Below are positions 1,696 to 63,001 of a stretch of DNA of 64,000 bases, in pieces (within the stretch, counting starts at the first letter, position 1; every line of letters starts with the position of its first letter). This DNA comes from a virus: positions 1 through 64,000 of IMG/VR virus record IMGVR_UViG_3300042564_004498; one strand, written 5' to 3'. Below the pieces are notes generated by a model. The model ran no database searches and had not been told where the DNA came from. It worked only from the letters and a program-made list of their open reading frames with translations. The translations under genes and the position numbers were made by a program.

Positions 1696-2316
1696 ATGGA
1701 TTTTTTAATTAACGAATCTCAACTGAGAACAATTTTAACGGAACAAGATAAATCTAAGATGACAGATTATATGAAAGTACTATATTCTTTCACAAATAAT
1801 CTTGTTGGTAGAGTACTAAAAGTTTATGGGTTTAACTTAAAAATGTTATTAACTTGGGGTACCTCTGTTGGAGGTATGGTTATGCCATTAGACAACTTTA
1901 TCAAAACAGGAAATTTTGATTTAACCGATGACCAACGATATTTAATTTTAGCGGGAGTCGCTTTCATTATATTTTTTGAAAGTAAAAAAGGACTTGTAAA
2001 CATTTTAGAACAAATTAAAGAAGAGGGTCTTGAAGACACTTTTAGAATCGTTTTAGAAAAAGCTAAAGATTTAAAATCTTCATTTAAAGGATTTCTTAAT
2101 TCGTTAAAAGTTACATCAAGTAGTTTCATGGAAACCGTTGCTTATAGTTTCTTAATACCAATTATTTTAGATATCCAAACTATTGCTTATAACACCTCTG
2201 ACCCAAAAGAGGCTGGAATACATATTGCAGAAAGACTTATTGCTTCAGGAGTTGTTGTTATTGGGTCACAAGTATTATCTCAAGTACTTAGAAAAATAAT
2301 AGAAAGACTTAGGTAA
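1696..2316 (+). CDS. tagged membrane protein, 206 aa
   Basis: It begins with the recurrent leader MDFLINESQLRTILTEQDKS, ending in an EQ pair. After that come roughly four hydrophobic stretches: WGTSVGGMVMPL near residue 55, YLILAGVAFIIFF near 90, YSFLIPIILDIQTI near 152 and ASGVVVIGSQVL near 185. A small multipass membrane protein carrying the virion-type tag could be an injected inner-membrane protein, but this is inference. TATTTAT lies 6 bases before the ATG, and the 3' end overlaps the convergent neighbour by 8 bases. Confidence 0.65.
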   Translation: MDFLINESQLRTILTEQDKSKMTDYMKVLYSFTNNLVGRVLKVYGFNLKMLLTWGTSVGGMVMPLDNFIKTGNFDLTDDQRYLILAGVAFIIFFESKKGLVNILEQIKEEGLEDTFRIVLEKAKDLKSSFKGFLNSLKVTSSSFMETVAYSFLIPIILDIQTIAYNTSDPKEAGIHIAERLIASGVVVIGSQVLSQVLRKIIERLR

Positions 2317-3049
2317 ACATTTCATCATTAATATCAAAATGATTGGCTGTTGGGTGAACGTCTAAACCATCTATTGATTTAACATACCACAAGGGTTGTA
2401 CGTATAAGTCATCAATTTTTAATAAATTAATTTCATCTCGTAATGTACTATAAAGAATATTTTCTACCTCATCTTTAAATCTATCCGAATCATACATCAT
2501 ATCACTAACAACGCCCGCCAACTCATCTATCATGTCTAAATTAGGTGATACTGTTTTACCGTTTATTTTAAAATTTGATAATTTAAGGTAAAAATAAAAA
2601 GTAATATAATCCCCATCAAAATTACTAAAATAACCATCAGATGGTTCCCAATGTATGTTAAATTTTAACCAATTTGTTTTATTTGTAATAAGTTCCGCAG
2701 TTTGAATTCGTTGTTGAATTTTTTTTAATACTTTTTGTTCCTTCTCAGGACTAATATAAACACCACCTTTAACAGGTTGTTTACCATTAACCAGTATGTG
2801 AGCATTTATTGATATTGTAGCATCAAGATACTTTGATATGTTATCAATAATATCATCTATATGACTTTCAAAAACTGGTATTGCATATGATTGATTTTTT
2901 TTAGGTAAAATAACATTTATAGTGACATCATATATGGGTATAAACCCTGTCTCATCAAGTTTAATTTTAATAAAATGATATTCACATCCATCCTCTAAAA
3001 AAGGGTGGGACATTAACATTTTTTTAAGAACATTAGATAAATCAGACAT
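2309..3049 (-). CDS. hypothetical protein, 246 aa
   Basis: Alternating hydrophobic and polar residues (YHFIKIKLDETGFIPIYDVT, WYVKSIDGLDVHPT) suggest a beta-rich protein. Its ATG lies within the end of the upstream metallopeptidase gene (8-base overlap), so the two are co-translated. No known family recognised; a partner or substrate of the metallopeptidase is possible but unproven. Confidence 0.6.
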   Translation of the reverse strand: MSDLSNVLKKMLMSHPFLEDGCEYHFIKIKLDETGFIPIYDVTINVILPKKNQSYAIPVFESHIDDIIDNISKYLDATISINAHILVNGKQPVKGGVYISPEKEQKVLKKIQQRIQTAELITNKTNWLKFNIHWEPSDGYFSNFDGDYITFYFYLKLSNFKINGKTVSPNLDMIDELAGVVSDMMYDSDRFKDEVENILYSTLRDEINLLKIDDLYVQPLWYVKSIDGLDVHPTANHFDINDEMFT

Positions 3050-4022
3050 TATTTAAAATTTTTGCAATGACTTTTTCTTTTTGAGTCGGATTCAATCTAT
3101 GTTTATGAGGATTTTTTTCAAACCAATTCCTAACCAATGTTTCAAAATCTAATTTTGTTGTTTTAGATTTTCTATTAAATCCTGCTCTTTGTGCTTCTAA
3201 CTCATGTTGTTGCGTGTAATAAATTTCAGGGTCTTCAGTTTCTTCCTCTGGTGTTTCAAACCCTTCATCATGTTGTTTAACATGTTCCAATTCATGACGA
3301 ATAACCTCATTTAATTCGTGGCTTAATTCCTCTAAAATAGAATATCCCGCATTTGGATTTGAAATGATGGTAACAATCACATCATCATCGTCATATCGTA
3401 ATTCAGCGTCTACATCTACAGTATCCACATCATCACTCAATTCTAAATTCAATTTAATAACAAATCCTTCAATTCCAGGGTAAGTATAAACCATCTCATC
3501 CCCATTAATATCTTCAGGTAAAGTGAACTCACCTTCTCTTTGATACTTGAAAAAATTTATAATGTCTTTTACCAATACTCTGGTTAATTTATCTAATTTT
3601 CCTTCAACAAGTATTGATTCGTTCAATTTGTCCTCAGCAACTTCATTTATCACTCTAGTGCATATCGCCTTTTTTTCCACACCAAAATATTGTAAGAAAT
3701 CAGTTAACTTCTCGTTCATTATCCATCTAATGTTTGCATATTGTTGGCTAGTGGTATTAATTGAAACTTTTTTACCATAGATATCACCATACAATTTACT
3801 CCACCTGTCTGAGGTTTCATTTGTAGGTAGGATATAGATAGTATATTCAACATGTGGTTTCTTATCGCCCACATGATAATAATCTTTCACACCTGTTAAT
3901 TTTACTTTAACATTTGTTGGCACAGAATAGTCCTCATCATGTGTAGGTTGTAAATAAACCTCAAATGTATGGTTGGCAAAAAATTCGTTAATTCTTTCTA
4001 TTGGAAAATCTATAAAATTCAT
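3042..4022 (-). CDS. HExxH zinc metallopeptidase-like protein, 326 aa
   Basis: Near residue 242 it carries IRHELEHVKQHDE, a HExxH zinc-binding and catalytic motif inside a helix, preceded by ILEELSHELNEV. A further downstream acidic stretch (EEETEDPEIYYTQQHELEAQRAGF) contains a Glu that could be the third zinc ligand, as in gluzincins. The N-terminal 200 residues are not recognised. An internal segment near residue 138 (LNESILVEGKLDKLTRVLV) resembles the tag seen at the N-terminus of other proteins here. TATTTATAGGTA precedes the ATG. One of four HExxH proteins in the window. Confidence 0.65.
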   Translation of the reverse strand: MNFIDFPIERINEFFANHTFEVYLQPTHDEDYSVPTNVKVKLTGVKDYYHVGDKKPHVEYTIYILPTNETSDRWSKLYGDIYGKKVSINTTSQQYANIRWIMNEKLTDFLQYFGVEKKAICTRVINEVAEDKLNESILVEGKLDKLTRVLVKDIINFFKYQREGEFTLPEDINGDEMVYTYPGIEGFVIKLNLELSDDVDTVDVDAELRYDDDDVIVTIISNPNAGYSILEELSHELNEVIRHELEHVKQHDEGFETPEEETEDPEIYYTQQHELEAQRAGFNRKSKTTKLDFETLVRNWFEKNPHKHRLNPTQKEKVIAKILNNV

Positions 4023-4034
4023 TACCTATAAATA

Positions 4035-6097: not shown

Positions 6098-6721
6098 TTA
6101 AGAATTTGAAGAAGATAATCCCAATTGTTTAGCGTAACGACCAACATTACAAGACCAATATCCTGCAGTTGTTTTATCTGTTTTTTGAGAACATTTATTA
6201 AGAGTTCTAAATGATTTTGTGTCTTTTTTGTTTGTGGTTTTATTTTTTAAGTTAGAGTCTCCAAATGTTACTTTTTTAACACCATCTGTTTTACTTTTAA
6301 CATAAACCGCAAATTTCTTAGGACCACCTGGTGTTCTATGTGGTTTATTTAATTCAACATTTTTACCGTGAAGTTTTGCTTCTCTTAAAATATCTTCTTC
6401 CGTTTCTGTTTCATAAATGTATGGGGCATCAAGGTAAATAAGTCTTTTACCTATTTTAACTTTTTTACCTAAATCAGACTCAACCATTAAAGTATCATCT
6501 TCATTTAAGTCAATTTTACCTTCATTCCAAAGTTCTCTAACTTCATTAACCAAATTAAAATATGATTCAGAATAAACTCTAAATACATTATTAGTTAATG
6601 TCATGTTATTATCAATATGATATTTTAACTCATCAGACACTTCAACATTTTCTTTCAAAATCAAAGATTTGTCAAAATGTGACTCTAAAGACTCTTTTAT
6701 TAATTCTCGTAAACTATCCAT
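6098..6721 (-). CDS. tagged protein with C-terminal FGD...SFR...YWSC module, 207 aa
   Basis: I chose the start at 6721 (MDSLRELIKESLESHFDKS), which gives the tag form, rather than 6769. The last 60 residues (FAVYVKSKTDGVKKVTFGD, then KSFRTLNKCSQKTDKTTAGY, then WSCNVGRYAK) match the end of the protein at 61485 and a conserved module known from T4-like and marine phage proteins, probably DUF5872-like. The two Cys and the YW-S/A-C motif could bind metal. A late structural or packaged role is inferred. Confidence 0.65.
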   Translation of the reverse strand: MDSLRELIKESLESHFDKSLILKENVEVSDELKYHIDNNMTLTNNVFRVYSESYFNLVNEVRELWNEGKIDLNEDDTLMVESDLGKKVKIGKRLIYLDAPYIYETETEEDILREAKLHGKNVELNKPHRTPGGPKKFAVYVKSKTDGVKKVTFGDSNLKNKTTNKKDTKSFRTLNKCSQKTDKTTAGYWSCNVGRYAKQLGLSSSNS

Positions 6722-11681: not shown

Positions 11682-12633
11682 TTGGTAAAGATACAATATT
11701 TTTTTTAATCTTCCCAATCATTTTTTCAATTTGTGATTTTCTAAATTCAAGATTTTTCAACATATCAGCGTTAGCATCAAATAAATTTTCGGTTGAATCA
11801 AGAGTCTTATATTTTCTTTTTTGTTTGACCGTAAATGAAATATTGGTGTACAAAGGTGGTTCATAAAATCTAGTTACATTGCCCCTAAGTTGACCAATTT
11901 TAAGTTTTTTGTTTTTAAAAAGAATAAATTCTTCAGTTTCCGAATTAACATACATAAAAATATTCACAATCCTTTCTGAATATCTATTGGCGTCCAAATA
12001 ACTATGTACTTCAAAAAAAGTATCCCCATCAGGTTCAACAAAAGATTCCGCTTTAGTAAATGGTTTAACTTGGATTGTAATATCCTTACTTGGATTCACA
12101 ATAACAATATCAATTCCTTTTTTTGTATCTCTAATATCTCCTGAACAAAATCGTTTCATTTCTCCATTAGGGAATCTATTTTTTAAGATATTAATAGCGA
12201 ACATCTCATTTTTATTCCCTGATATTATAGTACCCATATTTAAGTCAACCAATTCTTGTGTGTAAGTACCTTTTGGTCCAAACAAATCATTTTTGTTCTC
12301 TTCAACCCACTTACGTAAATCTTGTTCACTTTCTCCAACTGGATTTGAATTTTTAAATAACTCTTTTATCCTGTCTTTTACTTTTGAATTAGTGTCAAAT
12401 CTATTTAGTACTGACCAAACATCTTCATCTGAATGAGGAAAAATATTTATTACTCCCGTATCCGTAATACAATCGTCATTTGGGTTTGGAGCTTTACCCC
12501 ATTTCCCAATCGGTTTGTAAATACTTTCAAGTTGTTGTCTAATAAAAGATGGGAATGTATCTGTGTTAGTTTTATAAAACTCAGATAGATTCTCAGATTG
12601 TTCTTTAAGGACTTTTTTAATTAATTCTCTCAT
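11665..12633 (-). CDS. tagged PD-(D/E)XK nuclease-like protein, 322 aa
   Basis: Starts with the tag MRELIKKVLKEQSE and a TATTTAT five bases before the ATG. Around residues 165-192 it reads CSGDIRDTKKGIDIVIVNP then ITIQVKPFTK: an Asp in a hairpin followed by Q-V-K, the usual arrangement of the PD-(D/E)XK nuclease core. The C-terminal part is Lys-rich. A nuclease carrying a virion-type leader would be a candidate for ejected cargo acting on host or competitor DNA. A second tagged nuclease of this kind lies at 43136. Catalysis is inferred from motif spacing only. Confidence 0.6.
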   Translation of the reverse strand: MRELIKKVLKEQSENLSEFYKTNTDTFPSFIRQQLESIYKPIGKWGKAPNPNDDCITDTGVINIFPHSDEDVWSVLNRFDTNSKVKDRIKELFKNSNPVGESEQDLRKWVEENKNDLFGPKGTYTQELVDLNMGTIISGNKNEMFAINILKNRFPNGEMKRFCSGDIRDTKKGIDIVIVNPSKDITIQVKPFTKAESFVEPDGDTFFEVHSYLDANRYSERIVNIFMYVNSETEEFILFKNKKLKIGQLRGNVTRFYEPPLYTNISFTVKQKRKYKTLDSTENLFDANADMLKNLEFRKSQIEKMIGKIKKNIVSLPNDSNK

Positions 12634-16268: not shown

Positions 16269-17250
16269 TTTTTGGTATTTCAATTTCAACAGGGATTCCT
16301 TTATACCCTCTTGATTGTTTGTAGGATGCAAGTTCTTCAATTCCTTGTATGTAATTTCCACAAGTAATTTTAGATAACGCATTTTTAACAGTACTACCAA
16401 CATTTTCAAGTGAGTATGCACTTGGGTTATTTTTAAAATTATTAAAATCGTAAATGTCTTTTACAATATATGAATTACCGTTATCAATTACTTCTCCATT
16501 TCCAATTGTTAAACCTATCGCCTTTGCCAATCCAGGATTTACCACTTTTTCTTCTCCTTTTTTAATCTTGGACCAATCGGTATCTTGGTAGAATGATACA
16601 TTACATTTCTTATTTCTTTTACAGTTTGGATTGGAAGGGAAATAAGAATTAACTTTATTTGCTATTATTTGTAATTCTTCGGGTTTAAAAAAATTAGAGG
16701 TAATTGGGGTTGTTTGACCCCCTAAAAAAGATAAAAAAGCTCTAATATGAGGAGGAAGTGGATTAAGTGAAACTGTTTTTGAATCAATATACCCTTTAAA
16801 CTCTTCCAATCTTTTTAAAGGACTTGAACAGAAATTTTTTGTTTTATCCCACCAAGAATCTTCTTTTGAAGGAGCTACTTTTGCATTTACATTAACTTTT
16901 GGTTTATTTGTTGCAGTTGTAGATAATTTTTGATTAGTTGCCGATGTAAGTGGTTGAACACCTAACGCCTTTGCAGTTATCGGTCCCACATTACCTGTTT
17001 GTTTAATACCTTTTTTCTTTTGAAATTGTCTAACAGCATCTTTTGTTGCCGGTCCAAAAACTCCATCGTCTTTAATTCTAAATCCGTTAAATATAAGGGC
17101 TTTTTGTACTTCTTTAACACCACTAGGTAAATTATTATTTCCATAATTAGGGATTCCAAAATTTGGGGCTCCTACAACTGATTGTTCTTTAAGAACTCTT
17201 TTAACGATTTGCTCTAAATCTGATTCCGTTAATTTTATTACTTTTTTCAT
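16255..17250 (-). CDS. tagged peptidoglycan-binding protein, 331 aa
   Basis: A textbook tag (MKKVIKLTESDLEQIVKRVL then KEQSVVGAPN) is followed by a PG_binding_1 domain at about residues 40-92 (GVKEVQKALIFNGFRIKDDG, then FGPATKDAVRQFQKKKGI). A Thr/Lys linker leads to a 200-residue unknown domain. The stretch EQSVVGAPN is nearly repeated as EQSVVGTPN in the protein at 25822, pointing to a conserved processing site after Glu. Likely a virion protein that meets the cell wall at entry. Confidence 0.7.
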   Translation of the reverse strand: MKKVIKLTESDLEQIVKRVLKEQSVVGAPNFGIPNYGNNNLPSGVKEVQKALIFNGFRIKDDGVFGPATKDAVRQFQKKKGIKQTGNVGPITAKALGVQPLTSATNQKLSTTATNKPKVNVNAKVAPSKEDSWWDKTKNFCSSPLKRLEEFKGYIDSKTVSLNPLPPHIRAFLSFLGGQTTPITSNFFKPEELQIIANKVNSYFPSNPNCKRNKKCNVSFYQDTDWSKIKKGEEKVVNPGLAKAIGLTIGNGEVIDNGNSYIVKDIYDFNNFKNNPSAYSLENVGSTVKNALSKITCGNYIQGIEELASYKQSRGYKGIPVEIEIPKTKTV

Positions 17251-18723: not shown

Positions 18724-19221
18724 TTATTGTCCTTTAATCATTCCAATTCCGTGTTTTAAAAACTCTTTTGCTCTTTGAGACACATGTTGCATTCCATAAA
18801 CTTTTTCAATGTCTTTAACTAACTCTTCTCCGTGTTCGTTCTCTTTGTAAAGTTCAATAATTTTGTCCATCGCTCTATTACATTCTCTTTTAGTTTCATC
18901 AAAATAATTGTAAGGCTTAAAGTCTTTTAAGTGGTTCATAACATGATATGCCAAATGTTCCCCACCATCGGAAACTTTTGGATGAAGTCTTAATGTTTTT
19001 AATAGTTCAAGTCTATCAACCAATCCGTTGATTCCACCTTTTCTTATTTTAACACCTTGGATATAATCTTCGGCGTCTTCGTCACCAACAATCTCCTCTA
19101 AAGTTTTAACATTCCCACCATGGCAGAATTTTTTGTCTTCTTCTTTTTTTGATTGTTCCGAAATATAAAGTTTTTTTATTGACTCTATTTCTGATTCTGT
19201 AATTTCAAATCTTTTACTCAT
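18724..19221 (-). CDS. tagged hypothetical protein, 165 aa
   Basis: The tag reads MSKRFEITESEIESIKKLYI then SEQSKK, with the EQ pair at the expected place. The remainder is helical with FCHGGNVKTLEEIVGDE and a His/Cys-containing segment. TATTTATTG lies 5 bases before the ATG. I recognise no catalytic motif; candidate internal virion protein. Confidence 0.65.
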   Translation of the reverse strand: MSKRFEITESEIESIKKLYISEQSKKEEDKKFCHGGNVKTLEEIVGDEDAEDYIQGVKIRKGGINGLVDRLELLKTLRLHPKVSDGGEHLAYHVMNHLKDFKPYNYFDETKRECNRAMDKIIELYKENEHGEELVKDIEKVYGMQHVSQRAKEFLKHGIGMIKGQ

Positions 19222-20185: not shown

Positions 20186-20470
20186 TTAGTTTTCGTATTT
20201 TATATTTGAGAAAGTTTTATTTATCTCATCTAAATTGTGAAAAATCCTAGTTTTTAATTCTGTGTGAATTTGTTTACCTGATTTTAACATGGACATAAGT
20301 TCATCCATCTTAGAGATTATGTCATTAACCGCATCTTCAATATCGGAGTTTCCATTATCCGAAGATGTTGTCATAGGTTGACTATAAATATCTAAATCCA
20401 TTGCTGCGGTGTTTGACGCTTGTTCTACCAATTTTTGATATTGTGATTTAGTTAGAATGTATTTAGACAT
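20186..20470 (-). CDS. tagged hypothetical protein, 94 aa
   Basis: The tag is MSKYILTKSQYQKLVEQASN with an EQ pair at residues 16-17. A Ser/Asn-rich linker and a helical C-terminus (DIISKMDELMSMLKSGKQ) follow. TATTTATAAATA lies about 17 bases upstream. The protein is mostly tag plus a helix, as expected of small internal head proteins. Confidence 0.6.
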   Translation of the reverse strand: MSKYILTKSQYQKLVEQASNTAAMDLDIYSQPMTTSSDNGNSDIEDAVNDIISKMDELMSMLKSGKQIHTELKTRIFHNLDEINKTFSNIKYEN

Positions 20471-21829: not shown

Positions 21830-22195
21830 TTAATCAATTGTTTTAACTGGTAAATTAAAATTTTTCATAAACCAATTTTTAAATGGTTCATTCCACATAT
21901 CACCAAAATAACCGTTTAATTTCCTTACATAATCATCACCAATAGTAACCATTGGACACTTTTCACTTGCAGGACTATTAGGGTTAAAGTAATCACATTC
22001 GTACCAATAAAAACATCCTTCATCATCCCCATCATAATCTCCAATATAAAATACTACTCGATTAGTATCATCCCACTCTTCACCTGTTTCATCATCATAT
22101 TCAACAGGGTGTGTCCAATTAATATCATTAAAAAGTTCCTTAATGTAATTAGTAATTGTCTCGTCTAATTTAGATTCTGTAATTATGTATTTCAT
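21830..22195 (-). CDS. tagged WFE-type protein, 121 aa
   Basis: The tag MKYIITESKLDETITNYIKE is followed by an acidic beta segment (VVFYIGDYDGDDEGCFYWYE) and the end LNGYFGDMWNEPFKNWFMKN then FNLPVKTID. The same plan (tag, beta domain, WF[EM] helix, short V-x-D/E tail) is seen at 46558 and 52278. It is one base away from the gene upstream. Confidence 0.6.
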   Translation of the reverse strand: MKYIITESKLDETITNYIKELFNDINWTHPVEYDDETGEEWDDTNRVVFYIGDYDGDDEGCFYWYECDYFNPNSPASEKCPMVTIGDDYVRKLNGYFGDMWNEPFKNWFMKNFNLPVKTID

Positions 22196-22467: not shown

Positions 22468-23205
22468 TTATGCCAAATCTGATTTTGATTTATCATCTAA
22501 AGAAGCATAAATTGGCTCCGATTTTTGTCTTGTAGATTGAGCAAGTTGTTTTACAGAATTTTCATAATCTTTTGAAGACGCATATCTTTGACCTCCAGAG
22601 TTAACAAAATTATTTAACAAATCTGACGCTGTTTTATTTCCTGCCAAATATTTTCTAGCGATTAAATCATAATATGTTTGAATACCACTTTGGACTGACC
22701 CATGACTAATATTTTTCCCTGAATCAATATTCCCAACATTAAATGGGTTTTTTGTTCTAATAGGTCTTGCTTTTGGGTTACTCGAAAAACCTCCTTCAGT
22801 CGCCAATTGGGCCAATGCCAATTCCGCAGGAACATATTTTTTGTATTGATTATAAGTATTTTTTGCCGCATCCGCCAACATAGAACCGGTAATACCTAAA
22901 AGATTTGATGACCTATTTGTAATAAAATTATCTGCAATTTTTTGATAGGCCTTATACCCTTCAGAAGTATTAAGGTCTAATGTTTTAAATGTGGTATCAC
23001 CTCCTTTAATTATTGGAGACCCTGCTGAACTTTTATCAAAAGTTTTAGATTGTGTTGTACTATCTGAGGATTGTGTTGTGGAATCAGAATCACCAGTTGA
23101 TAACATATTTTTAATAAATTTACTAAGGGAATCATCCCCTATTTGTTCTGAGATTAGATTAACTAATTCTTGTCTTGTAAGTCTTACGACATATTTTTTT
23201 CCCAT
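22468..23205 (-). CDS. tagged glucosaminidase/transglycosylase-like protein, 245 aa
   Basis: The tag MGKKYVVRLTRQELVNLISE then Q is followed by a Ser/Thr linker with two near-identical SSDSTTQS units. The domain at residues 95-220 (VPAELALAQLATEGGFSSNP, TKNPFNVGNIDSGKN, SGIQTYYDLIARKYL) matches the glucosaminidase / lysozyme-like fold, with the Glu of ATEGG as likely catalyst. A tagged muralytic enzyme fits a virion-associated lysin used at entry. TATTTATATG precedes the ATG. Confidence 0.72.
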   Translation of the reverse strand: MGKKYVVRLTRQELVNLISEQIGDDSLSKFIKNMLSTGDSDSTTQSSDSTTQSKTFDKSSAGSPIIKGGDTTFKTLDLNTSEGYKAYQKIADNFITNRSSNLLGITGSMLADAAKNTYNQYKKYVPAELALAQLATEGGFSSNPKARPIRTKNPFNVGNIDSGKNISHGSVQSGIQTYYDLIARKYLAGNKTASDLLNNFVNSGGQRYASSKDYENSVKQLAQSTRQKSEPIYASLDDKSKSDLA

Positions 23206-24193: not shown

Positions 24194-24460
24194 TTAATAA
24201 TCAATGTCTGAGTTCTCCATCATTATAACTTCAACGTCTAAACCAATATAATTTTTTATTTTATTACGAATTAATGATTGGTATTTTGTTTTTGCCGCGC
24301 TCATTAAATAATTTTTTAATGGGATTAAAACATATATGGAACCAGTTGATGAAAATACAACATCAACTTTTATTGACAATGGGACTTTAATATCTTCAAC
24401 TATTTCTTTAATTGAGGATATTATTTTTTCTTTTTGTTTTTCACTAATAATTACATCCAT
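24194..24460 (-). CDS. tag-like small protein, 88 aa
   Basis: The N-terminus MDVIISEKQKEKIISSIKEI is a clear variant of the leader found on other late proteins. A beta segment (VDVVFSSTGSIYVLIPLKNY) and helix follow. It starts one base after the end of the gene above. Function unknown. Confidence 0.55.
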   Translation of the reverse strand: MDVIISEKQKEKIISSIKEIVEDIKVPLSIKVDVVFSSTGSIYVLIPLKNYLMSAAKTKYQSLIRNKIKNYIGLDVEVIMMENSDIDY

Positions 24461-24461: not shown

Positions 24462-25091
24462 TTAGTCAGTAATTTTTAATTTCATAGGTTTAAACTTTGT
24501 TTTTGGTTTTAAAGGAGGATTTAATAAAAACTTTTCATTTAACCAATTTCTTAATTCATTTTCAACAAAAAATTCAGGAACCTCTTTATCGTCAGGTTGT
24601 AAACTTGCAAGATTGGCAATATATTGTGCAAACTTTAATTTATATTTTTCATCTAACATAGTCATAAGACCATCTGAAATAAAAAATATTTTAGTTAGTG
24701 GGTCTGATAAATTCATTTCACCTTCGGCTATTTGAAATGACTTCATAATAACTTTACTCCAAAATGTTTTGTAGTTGTAAGTTTGTTCTAAACTTGGAGT
24801 TAATAGTTTGTTGGCGGCTCTCATTACACCTGCAATTGACCCCGCAATAAATAATTGAGGGATAAACCACGGGAGTAATCTTATTGTGGCTTTAACACCC
24901 CCTTGACCAACATCTTTGAAAATTTTTTTCTTTGTTGCCGACCCAACTAACGCCTTTAATTGTCCAAACGTGATTTTTCCTTGGGCCGAACAAAACTTTT
25001 CACTATTGCAAATATTTTGTTTTACCGTGGTGAAAGGTTCAATATGTTTTTTAAGTTCTTCAAACTGGTCTTGTGTTACAATATATTTCAT
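24462..25091 (-). CDS. tagged hypothetical protein, 209 aa
   Basis: The tag MKYIVTQDQFEELKKHIEPF is followed by a Cys-containing segment (NICNSEKFCSAQG), a hydrophobic helix (LLPWFIPQLFIAGSIAGVMR) and a basic Pro/Lys tail. TATTTATATG lies 4 bases before the ATG. Perhaps an internal virion protein with one membrane-active helix. Confidence 0.6.
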   Translation of the reverse strand: MKYIVTQDQFEELKKHIEPFTTVKQNICNSEKFCSAQGKITFGQLKALVGSATKKKIFKDVGQGGVKATIRLLPWFIPQLFIAGSIAGVMRAANKLLTPSLEQTYNYKTFWSKVIMKSFQIAEGEMNLSDPLTKIFFISDGLMTMLDEKYKLKFAQYIANLASLQPDDKEVPEFFVENELRNWLNEKFLLNPPLKPKTKFKPMKLKITD

Positions 25092-25160: not shown

Positions 25161-25793
25161 TTATTGTTGACCAGCTCTTCTTTGATTTCTTCTTGCTTGT
25201 CTTGCTAGTCTTTGGTCAAATCTACCTTGTTGTCTAATTTGTTGTGGAGTTAATTGACCACTTAATGCTTGTTGACTTGTTTGAGATAATGCCGGTTGTG
25301 TTGTTGTTGCAGGAGCCGCTTGTGTTTGACCAACTTCAGTCCCTAATACTTCATCTGATGTTTGAGCTACGGGTTGTGCGGTTGTTGTGGCGGCTGGTGC
25401 TGCGGTTGTTGTGGCGGCTGGTGCTGCGGTTGTTGTAGCGGCTGGTGCCGTTGTTCCTGTTGCAGGCGCTGCCGTTGTCGCTGCCGGCGCCCCTGTTATA
25501 GGATTAGGTTTGTTTTCAAAATCTTTTCCCATTTGAGAAAAAGTTTCTTTAAATTTATCCACACTAGCTTGAGTGGACTTCATTGTTTTTGAAAGTGCTG
25601 TCAAAGTATTTTGACCTAAAATTCCATCAACTTTTAACCCTGTATTATATTTGGTGTTTAACAGTGTTTGTATCTTCATGATTTTTGCTTTATCATCCAA
25701 CGGTGGTGTTGATTGTTCTTTAAGTAATTTAGCATTATTATGAAGATTTAATATCTCTTTTTTTTCTGATTCGCTTATATTGAAAATTCCCAT
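25161..25793 (-). CDS. tagged peptidoglycan-binding protein with Ala/Thr/Pro linker, 210 aa
   Basis: The leader MGIFNISESEKKEILNLHNN then AKLLKEQS carries the terminal EQ. A PG_binding_1 domain at residues 33-75 (DKAKIMKIQTLLNTKYNTGL, then KVDGILGQNTLTALSK) leads to a low-complexity linker with three PAATTTAA-type units and a basic, Gln-rich C-terminus (FDQRLARQARRNQRRAGQQ). A virion protein binding the wall through one end and DNA or capsid through the basic tail is a reasonable inference. Confidence 0.68.
   Translation of the reverse strand: MGIFNISESEKKEILNLHNNAKLLKEQSTPPLDDKAKIMKIQTLLNTKYNTGLKVDGILGQNTLTALSKTMKSTQASVDKFKETFSQMGKDFENKPNPITGAPAATTAAPATGTTAPAATTTAAPAATTTAAPAATTTAQPVAQTSDEVLGTEVGQTQAAPATTTQPALSQTSQQALSGQLTPQQIRQQGRFDQRLARQARRNQRRAGQQ
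25378..25449. repeat. three 24-bp tandem repeats
   Basis: GCGGTTGTTGTGGCGGCTGG-type units repeat three times at 24-base spacing and encode the PAATTTAA linker of the gene at 25161. Much more GC-rich than the surroundings. Confidence 0.85.
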
Positions 25794-43149: not shown

Positions 43150-43996
43150 GTTTTTTTCTTTTAATTGTTTTGGTATCGTTATCTTTAACAGAGTAAATTA
43201 CAAACACATCTTTCTGTGGATAAATTAAAATGTCCACGGCTTTATGTCTTCCTTTACTAACATCTTTCTTGAATGACTCACCTTGTCCTTCACTTGATTT
43301 CACTTGTATTGTTTTTACCTCACCTCTTGAAGATTTGAAAATTAAATCTGTTGAGAATATCATATCAATAAAATCTCCGTCTCCACCTTGGTATAATAAT
43401 TCATAACCTGGTATTGACCCAATTGTATCGGCAACTTCATTTTCAATTTTTTCTCCCCATTCAGAATTTCTTCTAATATTGGTAGTGTAATCCAATAATT
43501 CATTGGGAGAACTCAAATATTGACTAAAAAGACCTGATAAGTTGTCTTTATACTTCAATAATACTTCTTTTACCTCATCTTCATCTTTGGAATTACTTAT
43601 TGTGTTAATAATTTCAGTAGCGGCTGGACGACCATTATTTTTAGATAAAAATAACAAATCGGTTAAAAGTTTAGCTAAATCGGAAAAATTTGTGTTTAAT
43701 TTGTTAACAGGATGCCATTTACCATCAATATAAACTAATCTTTTACTTGGAAGACTTTCCAAAAATCTATTATAAGTGTAATCATTGATTTTACCGTTAT
43801 CTTTTAAGATATTGACCCCCATAATATATCTTTCAATATCATCTTCTCCAATATTTGTTTTGATTTCATCAAGAATATTATCGATTATTGATTGTAAACC
43901 TAAACCATCATTTCTTGATAACCAAGATTTTAACTTATTCAACGAGTTGAATATTGACTCATGGTCACCTTCTCTTTGTTCTTTTATTAATTTCAT
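43136..43996 (-). CDS. tagged PD-(D/E)XK nuclease-like protein, 286 aa
   Basis: Starts MKLIKEQREGD, a very short leader ending in EQ. Residues 190-235 read WGEKIENEVADTIGSIPGYE, then GGDGDFIDMIFSTDLIF and EVKTIQVKSSEGQ: a helix Glu, an Asp and a Q-V-K, the common core of PD-(D/E)XK nucleases. The N-terminal 180 residues are helical. Starts one base after the stop of 43998, so the two are expressed together. A second tagged nuclease is at 11665. Confidence 0.6.
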   Translation of the reverse strand: MKLIKEQREGDHESIFNSLNKLKSWLSRNDGLGLQSIIDNILDEIKTNIGEDDIERYIMGVNILKDNGKINDYTYNRFLESLPSKRLVYIDGKWHPVNKLNTNFSDLAKLLTDLLFLSKNNGRPAATEIINTISNSKDEDEVKEVLLKYKDNLSGLFSQYLSSPNELLDYTTNIRRNSEWGEKIENEVADTIGSIPGYELLYQGGDGDFIDMIFSTDLIFKSSRGEVKTIQVKSSEGQGESFKKDVSKGRHKAVDILIYPQKDVFVIYSVKDNDTKTIKRKKQPFS

Positions 43997-43997: not shown

Positions 43998-44858
43998 TTA
44001 ATGCTGTACTCTTAATCTATCGGTATTATATCCCAAACTTTGTATTAACTCACGAACTTCTTCAGTAAAAGTTGATGTATGTCTCCACGCATTACTTTTA
44101 AAAGTTAAGTTAATTAGTCCACCAACATTATTAGTTGATGTATTAAATTTCACTGAGTGTAATACTTGGGAATTAGGGAGAGCTCTAATTTTCTTTTTTA
44201 TTTCTTTATTTAATGTTTGTTTGACCCATTCATCGACCCCCTGATATACAAATGCACCACTCATATTTAAATCTAATTTTCCGTGGGTAACACTACCAAT
44301 TTCAACACCAATAAAATTAGTTAATGTTTCCATAAAGTCATTTCCCAATTCCGCGGCTCGATAATTTTTTTCAGATTTATCACGAATTGACTTATCAAAA
44401 TCAACACTAAAAAAACCATTTACAACATAAGGAGAATCTTCAGTTAAATTAAGTGTTATCCATTCAGGTAACTCTAACCTATCAGTAAAAAAAGTAATCG
44501 CCTTTTTGTACCTTTCAAGAAAAAGTCCTTCATTTTTAAGACTTGGCATTTTGTGAACGCCTTTTTGTGCTAATTCTCTTCCAACATTAACCATAGTACG
44601 ATAAGCACCATAATAACCTGTAACCACATCAGCAGCGCCATAATCTTCTGCAAATTCTTTCATATGATTTTTAATCAATAAAGAAAGAGGGTATTGACCT
44701 ATTTCATCACCGTGGTTTTTTTTAACCCATGGTCTAAAATAGTTCACAAAAACTTCAACAAAGTCTTCATCCTGGTATTCTTTTGGATTAAAACTTTCTA
44801 AGACAGTTCTTACAACTTTCTCAAGGTCAGATTCGGTAAGTGTGTGTATTTTTTTCAT
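43998..44858 (-). CDS. tagged hypothetical protein, 286 aa
   Basis: The tag MKKIHTLTESDLEKVVRTVL then ESF is the clearest match to the protein at 16255. The body is a mixed fold with Gly-rich segments (YGAADVVTGYYGAYRTMVNV) and a beta-rich C-terminus (GGLINLTFKSNAWRHTST). GAGTATTTATA lies 6 bases before the ATG. It precedes the tagged nuclease gene at 43136. Function unknown. Confidence 0.65.
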   Translation of the reverse strand: MKKIHTLTESDLEKVVRTVLESFNPKEYQDEDFVEVFVNYFRPWVKKNHGDEIGQYPLSLLIKNHMKEFAEDYGAADVVTGYYGAYRTMVNVGRELAQKGVHKMPSLKNEGLFLERYKKAITFFTDRLELPEWITLNLTEDSPYVVNGFFSVDFDKSIRDKSEKNYRAAELGNDFMETLTNFIGVEIGSVTHGKLDLNMSGAFVYQGVDEWVKQTLNKEIKKKIRALPNSQVLHSVKFNTSTNNVGGLINLTFKSNAWRHTSTFTEEVRELIQSLGYNTDRLRVQH

Positions 44859-45102: not shown

Positions 45103-45696
45103 TTAAAATCCTAAAATTTCGTGTCGTTTAACCGTATCAACAATATCTAAATAGAAATCTTCAAGGTCTCTTTCTCCTGATTCAATTTGATTAATAATTT
45201 CTTGTCTTTTATACCCTGTATTTTTATCAATGAAGTCAATCATTTCATCGTCAGTAATACCTTCAGGTTTTATTGGCTCAGGTATACACTCATGGTCTCT
45301 TTCAACAACACCAATGTCATCAACATATAATCCCGTTTCACCAACCATTTCTTCAAATTTAGGTATCATAATATCTTCATACCACTCTTCAATCACATGT
45401 AGCACAAAAGATTCTTTAACGGTAAACAAAGATTGTATTGTTTTAATAAAGTTTTTAGAAACAATTAAGTGTCCCCCTTCAAAATTTTCATCTTCAAAAT
45501 AAAATATTGCTGTAATCGCCTCTACCCCATCAACACACCAATCCTCCCGAAGATTACCATAATTACGAGATTTTTGTGTGATTTTTCTCTGACCTTCTTC
45601 AATATATTGATTTAGGTATTTTGTAATTGCGTTTTGTAACACGGGACTACTTTTTACAAATCTTTTATATTGTTCTTCAGTTATAATGTATTTCAT
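45103..45696 (-). CDS. tagged hypothetical protein, 197 aa
   Basis: The tag MKYIITEEQYKRFVKSSPVL precedes a domain with DWCVDGVEAITAIFYFEDEN and a WYEDIMIPKFEEMVG helix resembling the WFE family, then a helical acidic end. CTATTTATTTA lies 6 bases before the ATG. Function unknown. Confidence 0.62.
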   Translation of the reverse strand: MKYIITEEQYKRFVKSSPVLQNAITKYLNQYIEEGQRKITQKSRNYGNLREDWCVDGVEAITAIFYFEDENFEGGHLIVSKNFIKTIQSLFTVKESFVLHVIEEWYEDIMIPKFEEMVGETGLYVDDIGVVERDHECIPEPIKPEGITDDEMIDFIDKNTGYKRQEIINQIESGERDLEDFYLDIVDTVKRHEILGF

Positions 45697-46557: not shown

Positions 46558-46920
46558 TTAAAAAGTTCCAACATCATTTACTTGAAGACCCGTATGTCCT
46601 TCAAACCATTCTTTTACCATTGGTTTCCAAGAATCTTCACCAAAATAAGCATCAAATGACCCATAAATCCCTTTTGGTAATACCAAGAATGGACAATCCA
46701 TACTTGTATTGATATCATGGTTATTACAACTTACCCACCACATATGGTCGTAGTCGTCAAATTCAGGCATCCCTACCAAAGAAAAAAAATACTCAGGCTC
46801 ATTATCATCATATGGTGATTTAAATCCATCATATGGAATTAATTTATCATTGATAAATTCTAAAATGGCGTTGTTACGCTTCCAATTATTTAATTGTTGT
46901 TCGGTTATAATATATTCCAT
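46558..46920 (-). CDS. tagged WFE-type protein, 120 aa
   Basis: The tag MEYIITEQQLNNWKRNNAIL is followed by acidic and aromatic sequence and the ending MVKEWFEGHTGLQVNDVGTF, like the proteins at 21830 and 52278. AGTATTTATTA precedes the ATG. Function unknown. Confidence 0.6.
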   Translation of the reverse strand: MEYIITEQQLNNWKRNNAILEFINDKLIPYDGFKSPYDDNEPEYFFSLVGMPEFDDYDHMWWVSCNNHDINTSMDCPFLVLPKGIYGSFDAYFGEDSWKPMVKEWFEGHTGLQVNDVGTF

Positions 46921-48115: not shown

Positions 48116-48280
48116 TTATTTCACTTTTTTTTCTTGTTCATTAACCAATGGTTTTGAATCACCAAGCTTTGAATTTATTAATTTAGAGAAATTCTCAGTC
48201 ATTACTTTCATTCCTCCTGTGTGTTGTTCACGGATGGCATTTTTTTCTTCTTCCGATAAATTATTCAATATGTGTTTCAT
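48116..48280 (-). CDS. tagged small protein, 54 aa
   Basis: MKHILNNLSEEEKNAIREQH is another tag variant, with an EQ pair at 18-19. The remaining 34 residues are helical and Lys-rich. GGTATTTATAA lies 13 bases before the ATG. It lies 7 bases before the GH16-like gene. A small internal head-type protein is plausible. Confidence 0.6.
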   Translation of the reverse strand: MKHILNNLSEEEKNAIREQHTGGMKVMTENFSKLINSKLGDSKPLVNEQEKKVK

Positions 48281-50934: not shown

Positions 50935-52041
50935 ATTTTTGTTTTTCAATAAAGAGTATAATTTACTTAATTTTTTTGTCATTTTTAGACAAATGTTTCT
51001 TGTCTGATTAATCTCGTATTTGATGAATTTCTCATAGTCACCACCAAATCTTGTAACCCTATCCAAATATTTGTCAAAATATTTTTGTTTCTTTCCACTA
51101 AACCCAAAGAGTTCTTCAATAAACTCTTGTGTTAAATATGACTTCATTGTGCCTGCTCTCCAATTCAATAAAGTCTTAAAGAACTCCTTTAATGTTACAT
51201 CAACCATTTCGTCATCTGATGCATCTTCAGGATAATTAATATTATTATCGTCAAAAGTTTCTTTAATTTGGGGGATAATCTTTTTTAAATCATCCCTTAG
51301 TTTTTCATAAGTTAAATTGGCTCCGTCTTTATAAATCTCATAAACTTTATTATTTGTGATAAATTTATAAAAATCTTCTTTGGTGATTCCTTCCTCCTCC
51401 AACGCAGCATACAATTCTGTGGCTCTAACCAAATTTTCTGTGGTATGAGCAAAATACATATAATGTAATAATTTATTTAATGGTGGTATATTTCCAAATT
51501 GTCTTTGACTTCCAATTTGATATTCAACTCGTTTATTGGTTTTTAAGTTTGGGTTAACAGATTCATCGTAACCGTGTTTTATCTCATGAGCCAAACTTGA
51601 GATGATTACTACTTTTTCTTTTTTAAACTCATCAATTAAATCTTGAGTTGTTGCGTCATTATCTAAAGTCATATTAATTGACAAATCAATTACATCCATA
51701 TCACGATTAGTAGTGTAATTGAATTTATTGTTCATCTCCACTGTACTACGATGGGTCATACCTCTTAGATATATTTTTTGTCTACTATCCCCATTAACAT
51801 CATATTCATCTAAACTATCAACATTAAATTCCAAGTTAATAGTGTCAAACTTATAATCATTAATTTGAAAATTTCCCTTTAATACTATTGGTTTTTTTAT
51901 GAAAGATTTTAATTTGGTGGTTGGTTTAAGTTCCGACATCATTTTGTCGTATAGTTGTCTGGCAATGTCAACGATATTAGTTGGGACACCAACCGCTTCG
52001 TTTAATTTTTTATATTGAGATTCTGTTAATACGTATTTCAT
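50923..52041 (-). CDS. tagged HExxH metallopeptidase-like protein, 372 aa
   Basis: The tag MKYVLTESQYKKLNEAV precedes an unknown domain. Near residue 150, SSLAHEIKHGYDESVNP is a HExxH motif. RATELYAALEEEGITKEDFY supplies a possible downstream Glu ligand about 60 residues later, typical of gluzincins. The end is Lys-rich. ATATTTATCATTA lies right before the ATG. A protease carrying the virion-type leader is notable: it could be head-packaged cargo. Substrate unknown. Confidence 0.68.
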   Translation of the reverse strand: MKYVLTESQYKKLNEAVGVPTNIVDIARQLYDKMMSELKPTTKLKSFIKKPIVLKGNFQINDYKFDTINLEFNVDSLDEYDVNGDSRQKIYLRGMTHRSTVEMNNKFNYTTNRDMDVIDLSINMTLDNDATTQDLIDEFKKEKVVIISSLAHEIKHGYDESVNPNLKTNKRVEYQIGSQRQFGNIPPLNKLLHYMYFAHTTENLVRATELYAALEEEGITKEDFYKFITNNKVYEIYKDGANLTYEKLRDDLKKIIPQIKETFDDNNINYPEDASDDEMVDVTLKEFFKTLLNWRAGTMKSYLTQEFIEELFGFSGKKQKYFDKYLDRVTRFGGDYEKFIKYEINQTRNICLKMTKKLSKLYSLLKNKNNPL

Positions 52042-52277: not shown

Positions 52278-52583
52278 TTAATCATCATCACTAAAGTCCC
52301 AATTAACAATCTCATTAACAGGATAATCATACGTTTCTTCAAACCATTCACCAGCATATTCCAAAGCGTCCTCACCCGAAACATTAAACATGGCCGCAAA
52401 CCCAAAGATGATATCATTAGAAACCAATAATTTATTATTATAAATCTTATAATGCCAAGTCTGATTGCCATGGTTGTTTTCAAGGGAAAGATAATGTTGT
52501 GTTTCCTTAACATTATAATCAGGAGAATCAAAATATTTCCACATTAAATTCTTAACCTGTGATTCTTTAATAATATATTCCAT
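52278..52583 (-). CDS. tagged WFE-type protein, 101 aa
   Basis: The tag MEYIIKESQVKNLMWKYFDS is followed by a beta segment (WHYKIYNNKLLVSNDIIFGF) and the ending YAGEWFEETYDYPVNEIVNW. Same plan as 21830 and 46558. AGTATTTATCA precedes the ATG by 5 bases. Confidence 0.6.
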   Translation of the reverse strand: MEYIIKESQVKNLMWKYFDSPDYNVKETQHYLSLENNHGNQTWHYKIYNNKLLVSNDIIFGFAAMFNVSGEDALEYAGEWFEETYDYPVNEIVNWDFSDDD

Positions 52584-56032: not shown

Positions 56033-56353
56033 TTAATTAGACTTGAATCTTTTTCTTATAATAACATCTTTTACAGGTAGTCTATAATCTTTCTTTACCC
56101 ATAACTTAATTACCTTATGGATTTGTTTTTCATTTAATTTAAAAAAATCCATTAACGAAAAATGTATTCTACTGTCATCAGATGAAATAAACAATTCCAT
56201 AGGTTTCTTCTTATACAAGAAAATAATATTACCATCACTTTCCGAAAAAATAATGTTAGGACCTATGTCTTCCCGTTTTAAATTTGGAAACTCCTTTCGT
56301 AACCATTTAAGGATAACACTAAATAACCTCTTCTCACTTATAATATATTCCAT
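56033..56353 (-). CDS. tagged small protein, 106 aa
   Basis: I choose the ATG at 56353, where MEYIISEKRLFSVILKWLRK matches the tag and GGTATTTATTT precedes it, over an upstream start whose extra 32 residues look non-coding. The remaining part (NIIFLYKKKPMELFISSDDS, IHKVIKLWVKK) is WFE-like. Function unknown. Confidence 0.6.
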   Translation of the reverse strand: MEYIISEKRLFSVILKWLRKEFPNLKREDIGPNIIFSESDGNIIFLYKKKPMELFISSDDSRIHFSLMDFFKLNEKQIHKVIKLWVKKDYRLPVKDVIIRKRFKSN

Positions 56354-59621: not shown

Positions 59622-60185
59622 TTAATAGAATGATTTTAATTCCATGTACGGCCCCAAATTATATTTGTCTATAATCTGTTTGAAGATTTGTTGTCTGTAT
59701 CTTGAACCCAATATGTTCTTTTTACTAATGAATCCATAACCAAATCCTGAATCACCACTTAATCCCACCACTTTGTAATATGGTTGGTCGTGAAGATTTG
59801 TCGGATATAATCTTGCGGTGAATTTATATCTTAAACCACCCTTAGGTCCGAATGAAAAGTCCCCTAATTCTTTTTCACCACGATGTAGTGGTCGTAAATT
59901 ATCATTTAGTCCAAGTTTTTCAACCAACGCTTCATGTATGTATAGCGCTGTTTTGTCTACAGACATATAAACAAGTGGTGTATGAGTATCTTCACTGAAC
60001 ATCATAATATCTCCATCATAAAGAACATTTATTAAATTATCAATTCCACCCATTAGTTTAGATGTAATTTGTATCCCTGATTGTTTTAACATGGATTTTA
60101 ATGCATCTTTTTTTGAATCGGATTGTTCGTTAATAACCCCTCCCATCATTGATTGTATCCTATGTATGTTCTCTTGTAAGTTCAT
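59622..60185 (-). CDS. tagged protein (MNLQENIxRI type), 187 aa
   Basis: I choose the ATG at 60185: MNLQENIHRIQSMMGGVINE then QSDS, a second form of leader that also ends in EQ and is shared with the next gene (MNLQENIQRIREMM). The rest is an alpha/beta protein (IMMFSEDTHTPLVYMSVDKT, YKVVGLSGDSGFGYGFISKK). The start lies one base after the upstream stop. Confidence 0.62.
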   Translation of the reverse strand: MNLQENIHRIQSMMGGVINEQSDSKKDALKSMLKQSGIQITSKLMGGIDNLINVLYDGDIMMFSEDTHTPLVYMSVDKTALYIHEALVEKLGLNDNLRPLHRGEKELGDFSFGPKGGLRYKFTARLYPTNLHDQPYYKVVGLSGDSGFGYGFISKKNILGSRYRQQIFKQIIDKYNLGPYMELKSFY

Positions 60186-60186: not shown

Positions 60187-60960
60187 TTATTTAAAGTCAG
60201 GTAGTTTGGTGTCTTTAACAAATTTGTTATGTGAAGCTTTATATGATTTTTGAGTTTCATCGTTCACATCTTTGGTGTATTGCCAATTCCAATATAAATC
60301 ATCGTTTGGTTTGAAACCATAGAACTCATGAACCTTTTTTTGTATTTCAGTTACGTTCTCACCATTCCAATTCTGTCCAACACAAATAAACCCTGTCTCT
60401 ATATCCTTAACAAGATTTGATTCCCCCAATGTTGCGTGTCTATTCTCAATCCAAGTTAGTCTCTCGATTAAGTTTTGGTAGAACATATTGGTTTGTCCCC
60501 ACCTGATGGAACTAAAAAATATAACTGCGTCAGATTCAAATAACTCTTTTGATATCTTCCATAGTTCATCCTTTGGATTGTTATAACTTGCCCAACATCT
60601 ATGGTCACCTGATGGATTTTTCTTCTTATCTTTAAGCATGGATTTTAACACCCCACAACTATTCCCATCTTTTCTTGATACATTCCCTTCACAAGGAACT
60701 ATATTAAGTTCGGAAACATCAATTAAAACTGATGTATCTTTTAACTCATCGTTAAGGTACATGGCAATCGCCTTTGATTTTGGAATATCTTCGTTCTCCT
60801 TATCCCAATTATATCTATTGGAACAACTTAAGATTAAAACTTTCTTTTTATCTTTAAGAATATCTAATGTTTTCTTGATTGATTTCCATGCGTCGGACTG
60901 AACCATCTCTTCGGCAATCATCATCTCTCTTATTCTTTGTATGTTTTCTTGTAAGTTCAT
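60187..60960 (-). CDS. tagged NADPH-dependent FMN reductase-like flavoprotein, 257 aa
   Basis: The leader MNLQENIQRIREMMIAEEMV is followed by a flavodoxin-like fold: KKVLILSCSNRYNWDK in place of the usual nucleotide loop, then SDAVIFFSSIRWGQTNMFYQ and NLIERLTWIENRHATLGESN, the FMN-binding and dimer motif of NAD(P)H-dependent oxidoreductases. Cys in CEGNVSRKDGNSCGVLKSML and HRCWASYNN suggest an iron-sulfur flavoprotein type. A tagged redox enzyme is unusual cargo. TATTTATTAAT precedes the ATG. Confidence 0.72.
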   Translation of the reverse strand: MNLQENIQRIREMMIAEEMVQSDAWKSIKKTLDILKDKKKVLILSCSNRYNWDKENEDIPKSKAIAMYLNDELKDTSVLIDVSELNIVPCEGNVSRKDGNSCGVLKSMLKDKKKNPSGDHRCWASYNNPKDELWKISKELFESDAVIFFSSIRWGQTNMFYQNLIERLTWIENRHATLGESNLVKDIETGFICVGQNWNGENVTEIQKKVHEFYGFKPNDDLYWNWQYTKDVNDETQKSYKASHNKFVKDTKLPDFK

Positions 60961-61000: not shown

Positions 61001-61008
61001 GTTTTATT

Positions 61009-61471: not shown

Positions 61472-61484
61472 ATGATGTATTATT

Positions 61485-62006
61485 TTACCATGTTCTACAT
61501 GCCCAATATCTTGGTTTCCATCTTGGTCCAGGGTTATCACAATTATGTCTAGCCCTAAATGATTTTCTTCTTTCAGGATTATTCTTTTTAATCCTCATTA
61601 TTTTACCATGAGCAGATTTTCCTCCAAACCCAAAGTTAACCTTTACAACCTTACCCTTATCGTTTTTAACATATACCTTTGACTTCTTAACATCACCTTG
61701 CATAATTTTACCAAGTTGGACCTTACGCCCTTGGTATTCAGCTTCGGTTAACAAATCACCAATAACAAAGTTGGTTTCTTCAACTGAACCATACTTATCC
61801 TCATACAAAGTTTTATTTTTTGAGGTCTCTTCAATCTCTTCAGATTCATTCTTAACGCAATTTGGATATCTTTTACCAAACATTGTTTTCATCCCTTTTT
61901 TGGTATAACCTTTCCAACAACCTTCAGTCATTTCAGTTTCTTCTGCAAGAACACGTTTGATTAAATGAATCAAATCTCCTTCAGTAAGTTTAATAATCTT
62001 TGTCAT
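61485..62006 (-). CDS. tagged protein with SFRARHNC...YWAC module (DUF5872-like), 173 aa
   Basis: The tag MTKIIKLTEGDLIHLIKRVL then AEE is followed by a Cys-containing middle (EGCWKGYTKKGMKTMFGKRY). The C-terminus (VYVKNDKGKVVKVNFGFGG, NPERRKSFRARHNCDNPGPR, WKPRYWACRTW) is the same module as in 6098. This module is common on T4-like and marine phage virion proteins as far as I recall. Late role inferred. Confidence 0.7.
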   Translation of the reverse strand: MTKIIKLTEGDLIHLIKRVLAEETEMTEGCWKGYTKKGMKTMFGKRYPNCVKNESEEIEETSKNKTLYEDKYGSVEETNFVIGDLLTEAEYQGRKVQLGKIMQGDVKKSKVYVKNDKGKVVKVNFGFGGKSAHGKIMRIKKNNPERRKSFRARHNCDNPGPRWKPRYWACRTW

Positions 62007-62011
62007 ATTAT

Positions 62012-63001
62012 TTATTGTTTTAAATGTTTAAATCTAAATTCTATCTTCGCTCCTTTTGGGTCTTCCGCCTTCCATCTGAATCTCTTACCAATATAGTCTT
62101 TAAGTTCTCCCCTCATTTTGATTTTGATTGCGTCTTCCACCTTAGTTGAATCAAGGTTAGGAATCTCCCCCTTTAAATAGTTTTGTGGTGTAGTCACTTG
62201 GGTGTTGTTTTCTCTTTTAAGAACATCATATACATCTATGTCCACGAAAGCTTTGTCATCATTCACATCTATATTCTTTACTTGGAACTTTATATTTGTA
62301 TTTGGAACCATTTGTTCTGGGTCCCGATTCCAATAGTTGAACGTCTTTGCAGTTTTCTTTCTCTTTTTTAAATCAGGTTCAATATTTTTTAATTTCTGTA
62401 CCTTATTCTTCATTATCTCCTCGTGACTATATCCTCTTTCTAATAGTTTCATCTCCTCAGGAGTTAATGTGTACAAATTGTCAAACTCTTTATTGTCCCA
62501 CGATACAGGATTGGAATTACTCATTTGTCTACTCGTGGATGAAGAATAATTTGCAGTTACCTCATACCACTTATCATCTTTGAATATGTAAACTGGGTAC
62601 CATCCGTATGATGCAACTTTGTAGTATGGAATTCCTTTTGGGTCTTCAGTCCAATAACCCTCTAAGTTTGAACCCCTGAAAGGTAATTGGGCTATTGTGT
62701 ATAACTTCGCATTTGGATTTGATATAACTTTACCCTTTTGTTTTCTTGGGTCAACAAAGTTCTCCTTTGTTAGATTTGAATAGTCACCATCTTTTTTAAA
62801 GTTTAACACATACAATTCCAAAATATATTGTTCAAACCCTTCAGGTATTCCCATATATGGCGCCATGTGTTTGATGACGGTCAATAAAGATGCTCTCGTT
62901 CTATTTTTTTTCTTCTCCTCGTCTAATAACTTGAATAGCTTGGAAACCACTTTTAATGATGGCTCATTGGACTCTTCCGATATTGTGGTAATTGTTTTCA
63001 T
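62012..63001 (-). CDS. hypothetical protein with tag-like start, 329 aa
   Basis: MKTITTISEESNEPSLKVVS resembles the tag without a clear EQ end. The body is beta-rich and Lys-rich (YYKVASYGWYPVYIFKDDKW, IKFQVKNIDVNDDKAFVDID). ATATTTATTAATA precedes the ATG. It stands 5 bases before the tagged gene at 61485. Function unknown. Confidence 0.6.
   Translation of the reverse strand: MKTITTISEESNEPSLKVVSKLFKLLDEEKKKNRTRASLLTVIKHMAPYMGIPEGFEQYILELYVLNFKKDGDYSNLTKENFVDPRKQKGKVISNPNAKLYTIAQLPFRGSNLEGYWTEDPKGIPYYKVASYGWYPVYIFKDDKWYEVTANYSSSTSRQMSNSNPVSWDNKEFDNLYTLTPEEMKLLERGYSHEEIMKNKVQKLKNIEPDLKKRKKTAKTFNYWNRDPEQMVPNTNIKFQVKNIDVNDDKAFVDIDVYDVLKRENNTQVTTPQNYLKGEIPNLDSTKVEDAIKIKMRGELKDYIGKRFRWKAEDPKGAKIEFRFKHLKQ

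Follow-up and report, generated by a model that had tools for sequence, protein, structure and literature searches.

The window studied here comprises 64,000 nucleotides (positions 1 to 64,000) of the 145,525-bp virus record IMGVR_UViG_3300042564_004498 and encodes a series of otherwise different proteins that begin with short, related N-terminal leaders. According to the original prediction, one related leader is shared by more than twenty proteins of this window; we examined all 24 starts that it named and a further one at 63001, and found a clear leader in most of them. The N-terminal leaders are real, but they fall into about five related types and not one: type A (MKYIITESQY..), type B (MKKIIRLTESDLTRIVKRVI.E), type C (MRELIKKVLKE), type D (MNLQENI.RIKEMMG..E) and type E (..EEEKNRIL..H..L.E). 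Their length ranges across the families from about 6 to 48 residues. Below, a slash marks the boundary after the final Glu of a leader.

All tagged genes described here lie on the minus strand, with the single exception of 1696-2316 (plus strand), the 206-residue product of which opens with the type A leader MDFLINESQLRTILTE/Q (1696..1743) and has homologues with the same body and the leaders MEFLITESQLRVLLQE/E and MKTTLIINESQKKMILKE/S. Type A leaders are also found on 20186-20470 (MSKYILTKSQYQKLVE/Q, 20423..20470) and on 50923-52041, a putative HExxH peptidase (MKYVLTESQYKKLNE/A, 51997..52041). The type A core occurs on 21830-22195 (MKYIITE/S, 22175..22195, no clear second site), 24194-24460 (MDVIISE/K, 24440..24460), 46558-46920 (MEYIITE/Q, 46900..46920), 52278-52583 (MEYIIKE/S, 52563..52583), 56033-56353 (MEYIISE/K, 56333..56353) and 45103-45696 (MKYIITE/E, 45676..45696), homologues of the last having C/D leaders such as MKDLIRKVLRE/EVSKRF. 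A type A-like leader of uncertain boundary (25044..25091) precedes the NICDSEKFC body of 24462-25091, which has type A or C leaders in homologues. Type B is represented by MKKVIKLTESDLEQIVKRVLKE/QS (17185..17250) on 16255-17250, the body of which is a PG_binding_1 domain (Pfam 4e-16), by MKKIHTLTESDLEKVVRTVLE/S (44796..44858) on 43998-44858, of which leaderless homologues exist, and by MTKIIKLTEGDLIHLIKRVLAE/E (61941..62006) on 61485-62006, with scores of 49.9, 18.7 and 38.5 respectively under the independent matrix described below; the B-like MGKKYVVRLTRQELVNLISE/Q (23146..23205) stands on 22468-23205, which has weak glucosaminidase similarity. Type C leaders are MRELIKKVLKE/QS (12601..12633) on 11665-12633, with weak Mrr/NERD-like nuclease similarity, and MRDLIKNILRE/N (27559..27591) on 27178-27591, a homologue of which has MRELIKKILRE/A; the C-like MDSLRELIKE (6692..6721, boundary uncertain) on 6098-6721 is attached to a body that occurs in homologues with other leaders or none. 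Type D is found on 59622-60185 (MNLQENIHRIQSMMGGVINE/QS, 60126..60185), where the leader is real (MNLQENIHRIQSMMGGVINE/QSDSKK) though masked by the longest open reading frame (ORF) of that frame, and on 60187-60960 (MNLQENIQRIREMMIAE/E, 60910..60960), a type common to 38 unrelated bodies in other contigs. The type E/B leader MSKRFEITESEIESIKKLYISE/QS (19156..19221) belongs to 18724-19221, whose body has different leaders in relatives, nearly all of them with an [LI]xE/Q or [LI]xE/E end, and type E leaders are present on 25161-25793 (MGIFNISESEKKEILNLHNNAKLLKE/QS, 25716..25793; weak PG-binding similarity) and at 48137..48280, with the end PLVNE/Q. The 54-residue ORF containing the latter (48116-48280) stops right after it and is approximately a bare type E leader; its homologue in the relative G002 extends to 209 residues. 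Three further leaders are MKLIKE/Q (43979..43996) on 43136-43996, MKTITTISE/ES (62975..63001) on 62012-63001, with the homologue MKKLSTIAE/QSNEP, and that of 25822-26574 (26491..26574), where the start may be GTG 26574 or ATG 26535 and the end VISE/QSVVG holds for either codon. The leaders at 6721, 25091 and 63001 are weaker and are supported through homologues; start or boundary is less certain for these three and for 26574.

The bodies behind the leaders had been called unrelated, and body comparison agrees: the 25 proteins form 24 families, the sole related pair being 6098-6721 and 61485-62006. Ordinary paralogy, by which the tagged proteins would be diverged members of one family with a still recognisable N-terminus, is the least probable explanation that we considered; some small type A proteins in relatives do appear mutually related, but against it stand these 24 families, 84 body clusters behind leader B, recognisably different domains and the occurrence of one body with different leaders.

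The motif [LI]xEQ occurs in residues 3-35 of the record's proteins 20 times, compared with 3.2 expected from the body rate (6.3-fold, p=2e-10), and in two relatives 22 times each, compared with 6.7 and 5.9 (3.3- to 3.7-fold). Leader regular expressions match 29 of 221 ORFs of the record and 27 of 398 and 36 of 415 in two relatives, against 6 of 3395 random internal 40-mers and none of 69 T4 proteins; ORF-based counts are approximate, as they rest on longest-ATG ORFs, and the regular-expression counts are supportive and not independent because the patterns were composed after inspecting these sequences, so that independent tests weigh more. A type B scoring matrix trained on other phages only found 4, 9 and 3 N-termini in three genomes and gave no internal or shuffled match at >=6 bits, an outcome of the shuffled control that speaks for the leaders. 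The consensus sequences of leaders B and D had no match in 50,697 phage records, and leader B was recovered in at least 120 stretches of viral contigs versus 3 in 257 Gb of cellular genomes. On a contig of a Prevotella metagenome-assembled genome (L497:6395-6958), a type B leader gene with weak Tox-ART-HYD1 similarity lies between two ORFs resembling halves of one host gene. Sec/Tat export signal peptides were rejected as a candidate, the leaders, as read from the sequences, being charged and without a hydrophobic core of about 10 or more residues.

The end of the leaders was located through a search of viral contigs in which the query DNA encoded only residues 1-12 of leader B, and through analysis of the 84 unrelated bodies recovered. 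Residues 13-22 are conserved although they lie outside the query, Glu22 is present in 78 of the 84 bodies (3.2 bits) within [L/I]-x-E, position 23 is mostly Q, N or S (1.3 bits), and beyond it conservation drops to background, about 0.1-0.4 bits. Separate searches with types D (38 bodies), E (21) and A (17) gave mostly the same [L/I]-x-E end; the type C search yielded few matches.

The same joint is where leaders are exchanged. We found 38 pairs in which homologous bodies carry leaders of different types, and homology begins there at the Glu or no more than a few residues from it; the pairs are not 38 independent events because many come from few families. Where the swap pairs align in register (18 of them), most leader positions have an identity of 0-0.3, P3 (the L/I of the motif) has 0.61 and positions +1 to +5 have 0.6-0.9, the identity of the Glu itself being left out because the joint was found by a pattern containing Glu. 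The peptidase-like body of 50923-52041 illustrates this, since its homologues carry MKYVLTESQYKKLNE, MELNKIIKKVLRE, MRELIRQVLRE or MRDLIKKILKE, and under every leader the Glu is followed at once by A[VL]GVP or a similar stretch (e.g. MRDLIKKILKE/AVGVPS); its family has an invariant HExxH (H152-E153-H156), as in a putative peptidase.

PHROG and Pfam scans of the tagged bodies gave no family for most. The matches obtained were PG_binding_1 and weak nuclease and DHH similarity, with one or two members each for P-loop kinase, sigma-70, HD, acetyltransferase, SprT-like and ART-PolyVal families. A model of one body, which occurs behind leaders of types A, C and D, has a pLDDT of 73 (leader residues 1-18 below 50), and its best matches among solved structures are the tRNA 2'-phosphotransferases KptA/Tpt1 (E about 1e-4, probability 1.0, TM about 0.5); in this model the leader-swapped body is a KptA-type fold of the ADP-ribosyltransferase superfamily. 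A KYCF/KFC cysteine motif recurs after the leader in otherwise different tagged proteins, for example 18724-19221, 24462-25091, L019 and L086.

The record is probably a fragment that makes up under half of a giant T4-like phage genome of about 310-326 kb, because close relatives of its SbcC-like protein are encoded on contigs of up to 326 kb and those contigs that measure about 310-326 kb encode T4-type gp23 and gp21, with adjoining terminase and portal genes. Similar leaders had been attributed to marine phages; these phages are probably phages of Bacteroidota and not only marine. This host assignment is based on the promoter motif TAnnTTTG before some genes, which we take to be a host-type (Bacteroidota-type) promoter, on the fact that two of the three leader matches in cellular assemblies are in Bacteroidota, and on capsid protein kinship, the Flavobacterium phage vB_FspM_immuto being among the nearest cultured relatives.

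In T4, the prohead protease gp21 cleaves after L/I-x-E, and propeptides of 10-19 residues direct internal proteins to the core (PMC9026906). A search for a gp21-like protease found none in the 145-kb record, which we attribute to its being a fragment, but Peptidase_S77 is encoded by all near-complete relatives. Specifically, Peptidase_S77 (PF03420) lies above the curated cut-off in seven of seven close relatives of 308-326 kb (77-94 bits, cut-off 27), beside the gp23 capsid gene, and it is found in 17 of the 22 leader-bearing contigs with a length of at least about 95 kb, all eight that measure >=240 kb among them; the five without it measure 95-171 kb and may be fragments. Six relatives have [FHY]LINE/A in gp23 ahead of the conserved capsid fold, close to where T4 gp23 is cleaved, and LVKESL[ST]EQ within gp22 is likewise present in six; in two relatives the gene after gp23 bears a type E leader.

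Upstream of starts the motif TATTTAT shows a 16- to 23-fold enrichment, frequently at position -11 or -12, and it precedes homologues of gp13, 18, 19, 20, 21 and 25. We infer that it is a late-type promoter motif, a label held tentatively because in one relative gp41 and gp43 have it too. At the heads of transcription units, tagged genes (n=44) have the late-type motif in 40 cases, the host-type motif in none and neither in 4, compared with 134 late, 51 host-type, 229 none and 6 both for untagged genes (late versus host-type, p=1.5e-5). In G000, G002 and G006, TATTTAT often stands 11-12 nt before the start codon, so that, if it is a -10 element, the untranslated 5' ends of these mRNAs would be very short or missing; a second gene set in these three genomes has the Bacteroidota-type TAnnTTTG. 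It could be argued from the position of TATTTAT before many tagged starts that the shared N-termini reflect a 5' DNA cassette (promoter and translation start) copied by recombination, the peptide having no role, and different copies do agree in codon at 58-63% of shared leader residues, where codon usage would predict 42-56%. This is nevertheless highly improbable, for the remaining upstream DNA differs, the same motif precedes many untagged genes, codons at shared residues often differ, and conservation tracks the protein and stops at one residue. The codon excess is modest and compatible with some recent duplication, selection being mainly on the protein.

Core replication, tail and packaging genes are untagged: homologues of the T4 core proteins gp13, 17, 18, 19, 20, 25, 41, 43, 61 and NrdA carry no leader. 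This bears on the possibility that the leaders are docking tags for another structure (replication compartment, membrane, tail or baseplate), the Glu being merely a helix end or linker. Such a role would suit the resemblance of the leaders to a capped amphipathic helix, and the peptidoglycan-binding domains on some bodies would fit the envelope; we judge it unlikely, as core replication and tail genes are untagged, several leader types lose conservation exactly at the prohead-protease motif, and swaps join at the same Glu.

We regard it as likely that the leaders are instead capsid-targeting propeptides, as on T4 internal proteins, in several interchangeable families. As far as sequence evidence goes, the capsid-targeting or maturation signal cut after Glu that had been proposed fits the end of conservation, the swaps at Glu, the S77 protease of near-complete relatives and the late-type promoters. 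Several points weigh on the other side. The record itself lacks Peptidase_S77, and the co-occurrence of S77 with leaders may reflect shared ancestry, only leader-bearing phages having been screened. Gln predominates at P1' of the leaders, whereas gp23 has Ala there and T4 substrates have Ala, Ser or Leu; several small type A proteins have the first motif only (MKYIITE/); the T4 leader MKTYQEFIAE has, by eye, no resemblance to these leaders, none of the 69 T4 proteins, internal proteins included, matching the patterns; and the peptidoglycan-binding or endolysin-like domains of several tagged bodies are odd for cargo delivered to the cytoplasm.

If the leaders are capsid-targeting propeptides, tagged genes would be transcribed late together with head genes, as the common promoter motif suggests, and the amphipathic leader would, by analogy with T4, dock the protein onto the prohead core. 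The gp21-like Peptidase_S77 would cut after the Glu of [L/I]-x-E at head maturation, as motif, protease gene and boundary indicate, and release the body within the capsid; proteins packaged in this way would then leave with the DNA on ejection and act on the host at an early stage, as T4 internal proteins and Alt suggest. On this reading, several interchangeable leader families have become joined to dozens of different bodies in each genome. We are slightly inclined to go further and propose that large T4-like Bacteroidota phages use interchangeable leaders as a general cargo-loading code, with dozens of proteins (about 7-13% of genes) packed per capsid as an injected arsenal including ADP-ribosyltransferase-like, peptidase, kinase-like and nuclease-like proteins, and with the leader perhaps setting copy number or core position. 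The principle is already known from T4; the scale and variety of tags are new. No description of the leader families was found in the literature searched, which left out subscription papers and preprints, and head-targeting work was found only for T4, P1 and SPN3US. Should this hold, a leader with an [L/I]-x-E joint would mark many uncharacterised phage proteins as predicted head-packaged, injected effectors, a class that holds counter-defence proteins such as T4 IPI-III; the N-terminus left after maturation would be predictable for every tagged protein, and the leaders would be loading tags swappable as modules and candidates for loading foreign proteins into the giant capsids of Bacteroidota phages.

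T4 sequences show what we take to be the sites FIAE/A (IPII, IPIII), FLTE/A (gp23), LLRE/S (gp24) and LITE/L (Alt). MELITE/L of Alt resembles the type A core MKYIITE/S, and MAKINELLRE/S of gp24 resembles type C MRELIKKVLKE/Q, although gp24 is a shell protein. Alt is an ADP-ribosyltransferase packaged in the head, and an ADP-ribosyltransferase-type fold is found among the tagged bodies; the parallel is functional only, the tagged fold being KptA-like by structure comparison, with no Alt homologue by sequence. With IPI-IPIII the system shares a short N-terminal leader with an L/I-x-E end on unrelated proteins, a gp21-family protease encoded by relatives, and proteins that vary freely between relatives. 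It differs in having several leader families unlike the T4 leader in sequence, a preference for Gln after Glu and about 27-36 tagged genes per record versus 3 in T4. The capsid-targeting sequence of IPI-IPIII (Mullaney and Black) is reviewed in PMC9026906 and anti-restriction roles in PMC12373910; at least 10 internal proteins are reported across T-even phages, T4 Ip1-3 being homologous in the leader only (PMC12373910). The jumbo phages phiKZ and SPN3US are likewise rich in internal proteins and have gp21-related proteases that cut after Glu; in SPN3US the cleavage motif is A-x-E, most propeptides are longer than 100 residues and the majority of head proteins stay uncut (PMC10052503, PMC5694885). 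By contrast, the joint here is [L/I]-x-E after about 6-48 residues, and a shared leader family is described in neither phage. The cultured immuto has the T4-like head genes gp20 and gp23 and an S77 protease, a repeated leader of its own (MENFDLKKFLVENKLT.NSK.LKE) on at least four unrelated proteins, a second one (MKKQILSEQF.RMQ.LAGIITE) on two, and TATTTAT motifs before some leader-bearing genes. Its leader sequences, however, are a separate set that within the phage collection matches only in immuto isolates; it is a cultured phage in which capsid loading could be tested.

Elsewhere in the window, 40489-43087 holds a putative sugar-nucleotide cluster, predicted from sequence (epimerase, HldE-like kinase and nucleotidyltransferase, HAD phosphatase, cupin). 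Untagged paralogues that share a motif like W..D....W/Y..F...G..(F/W)YN..FF form a family encoded at 21013-21477, 48880-50157, 52714-53157 and 54800-55195.

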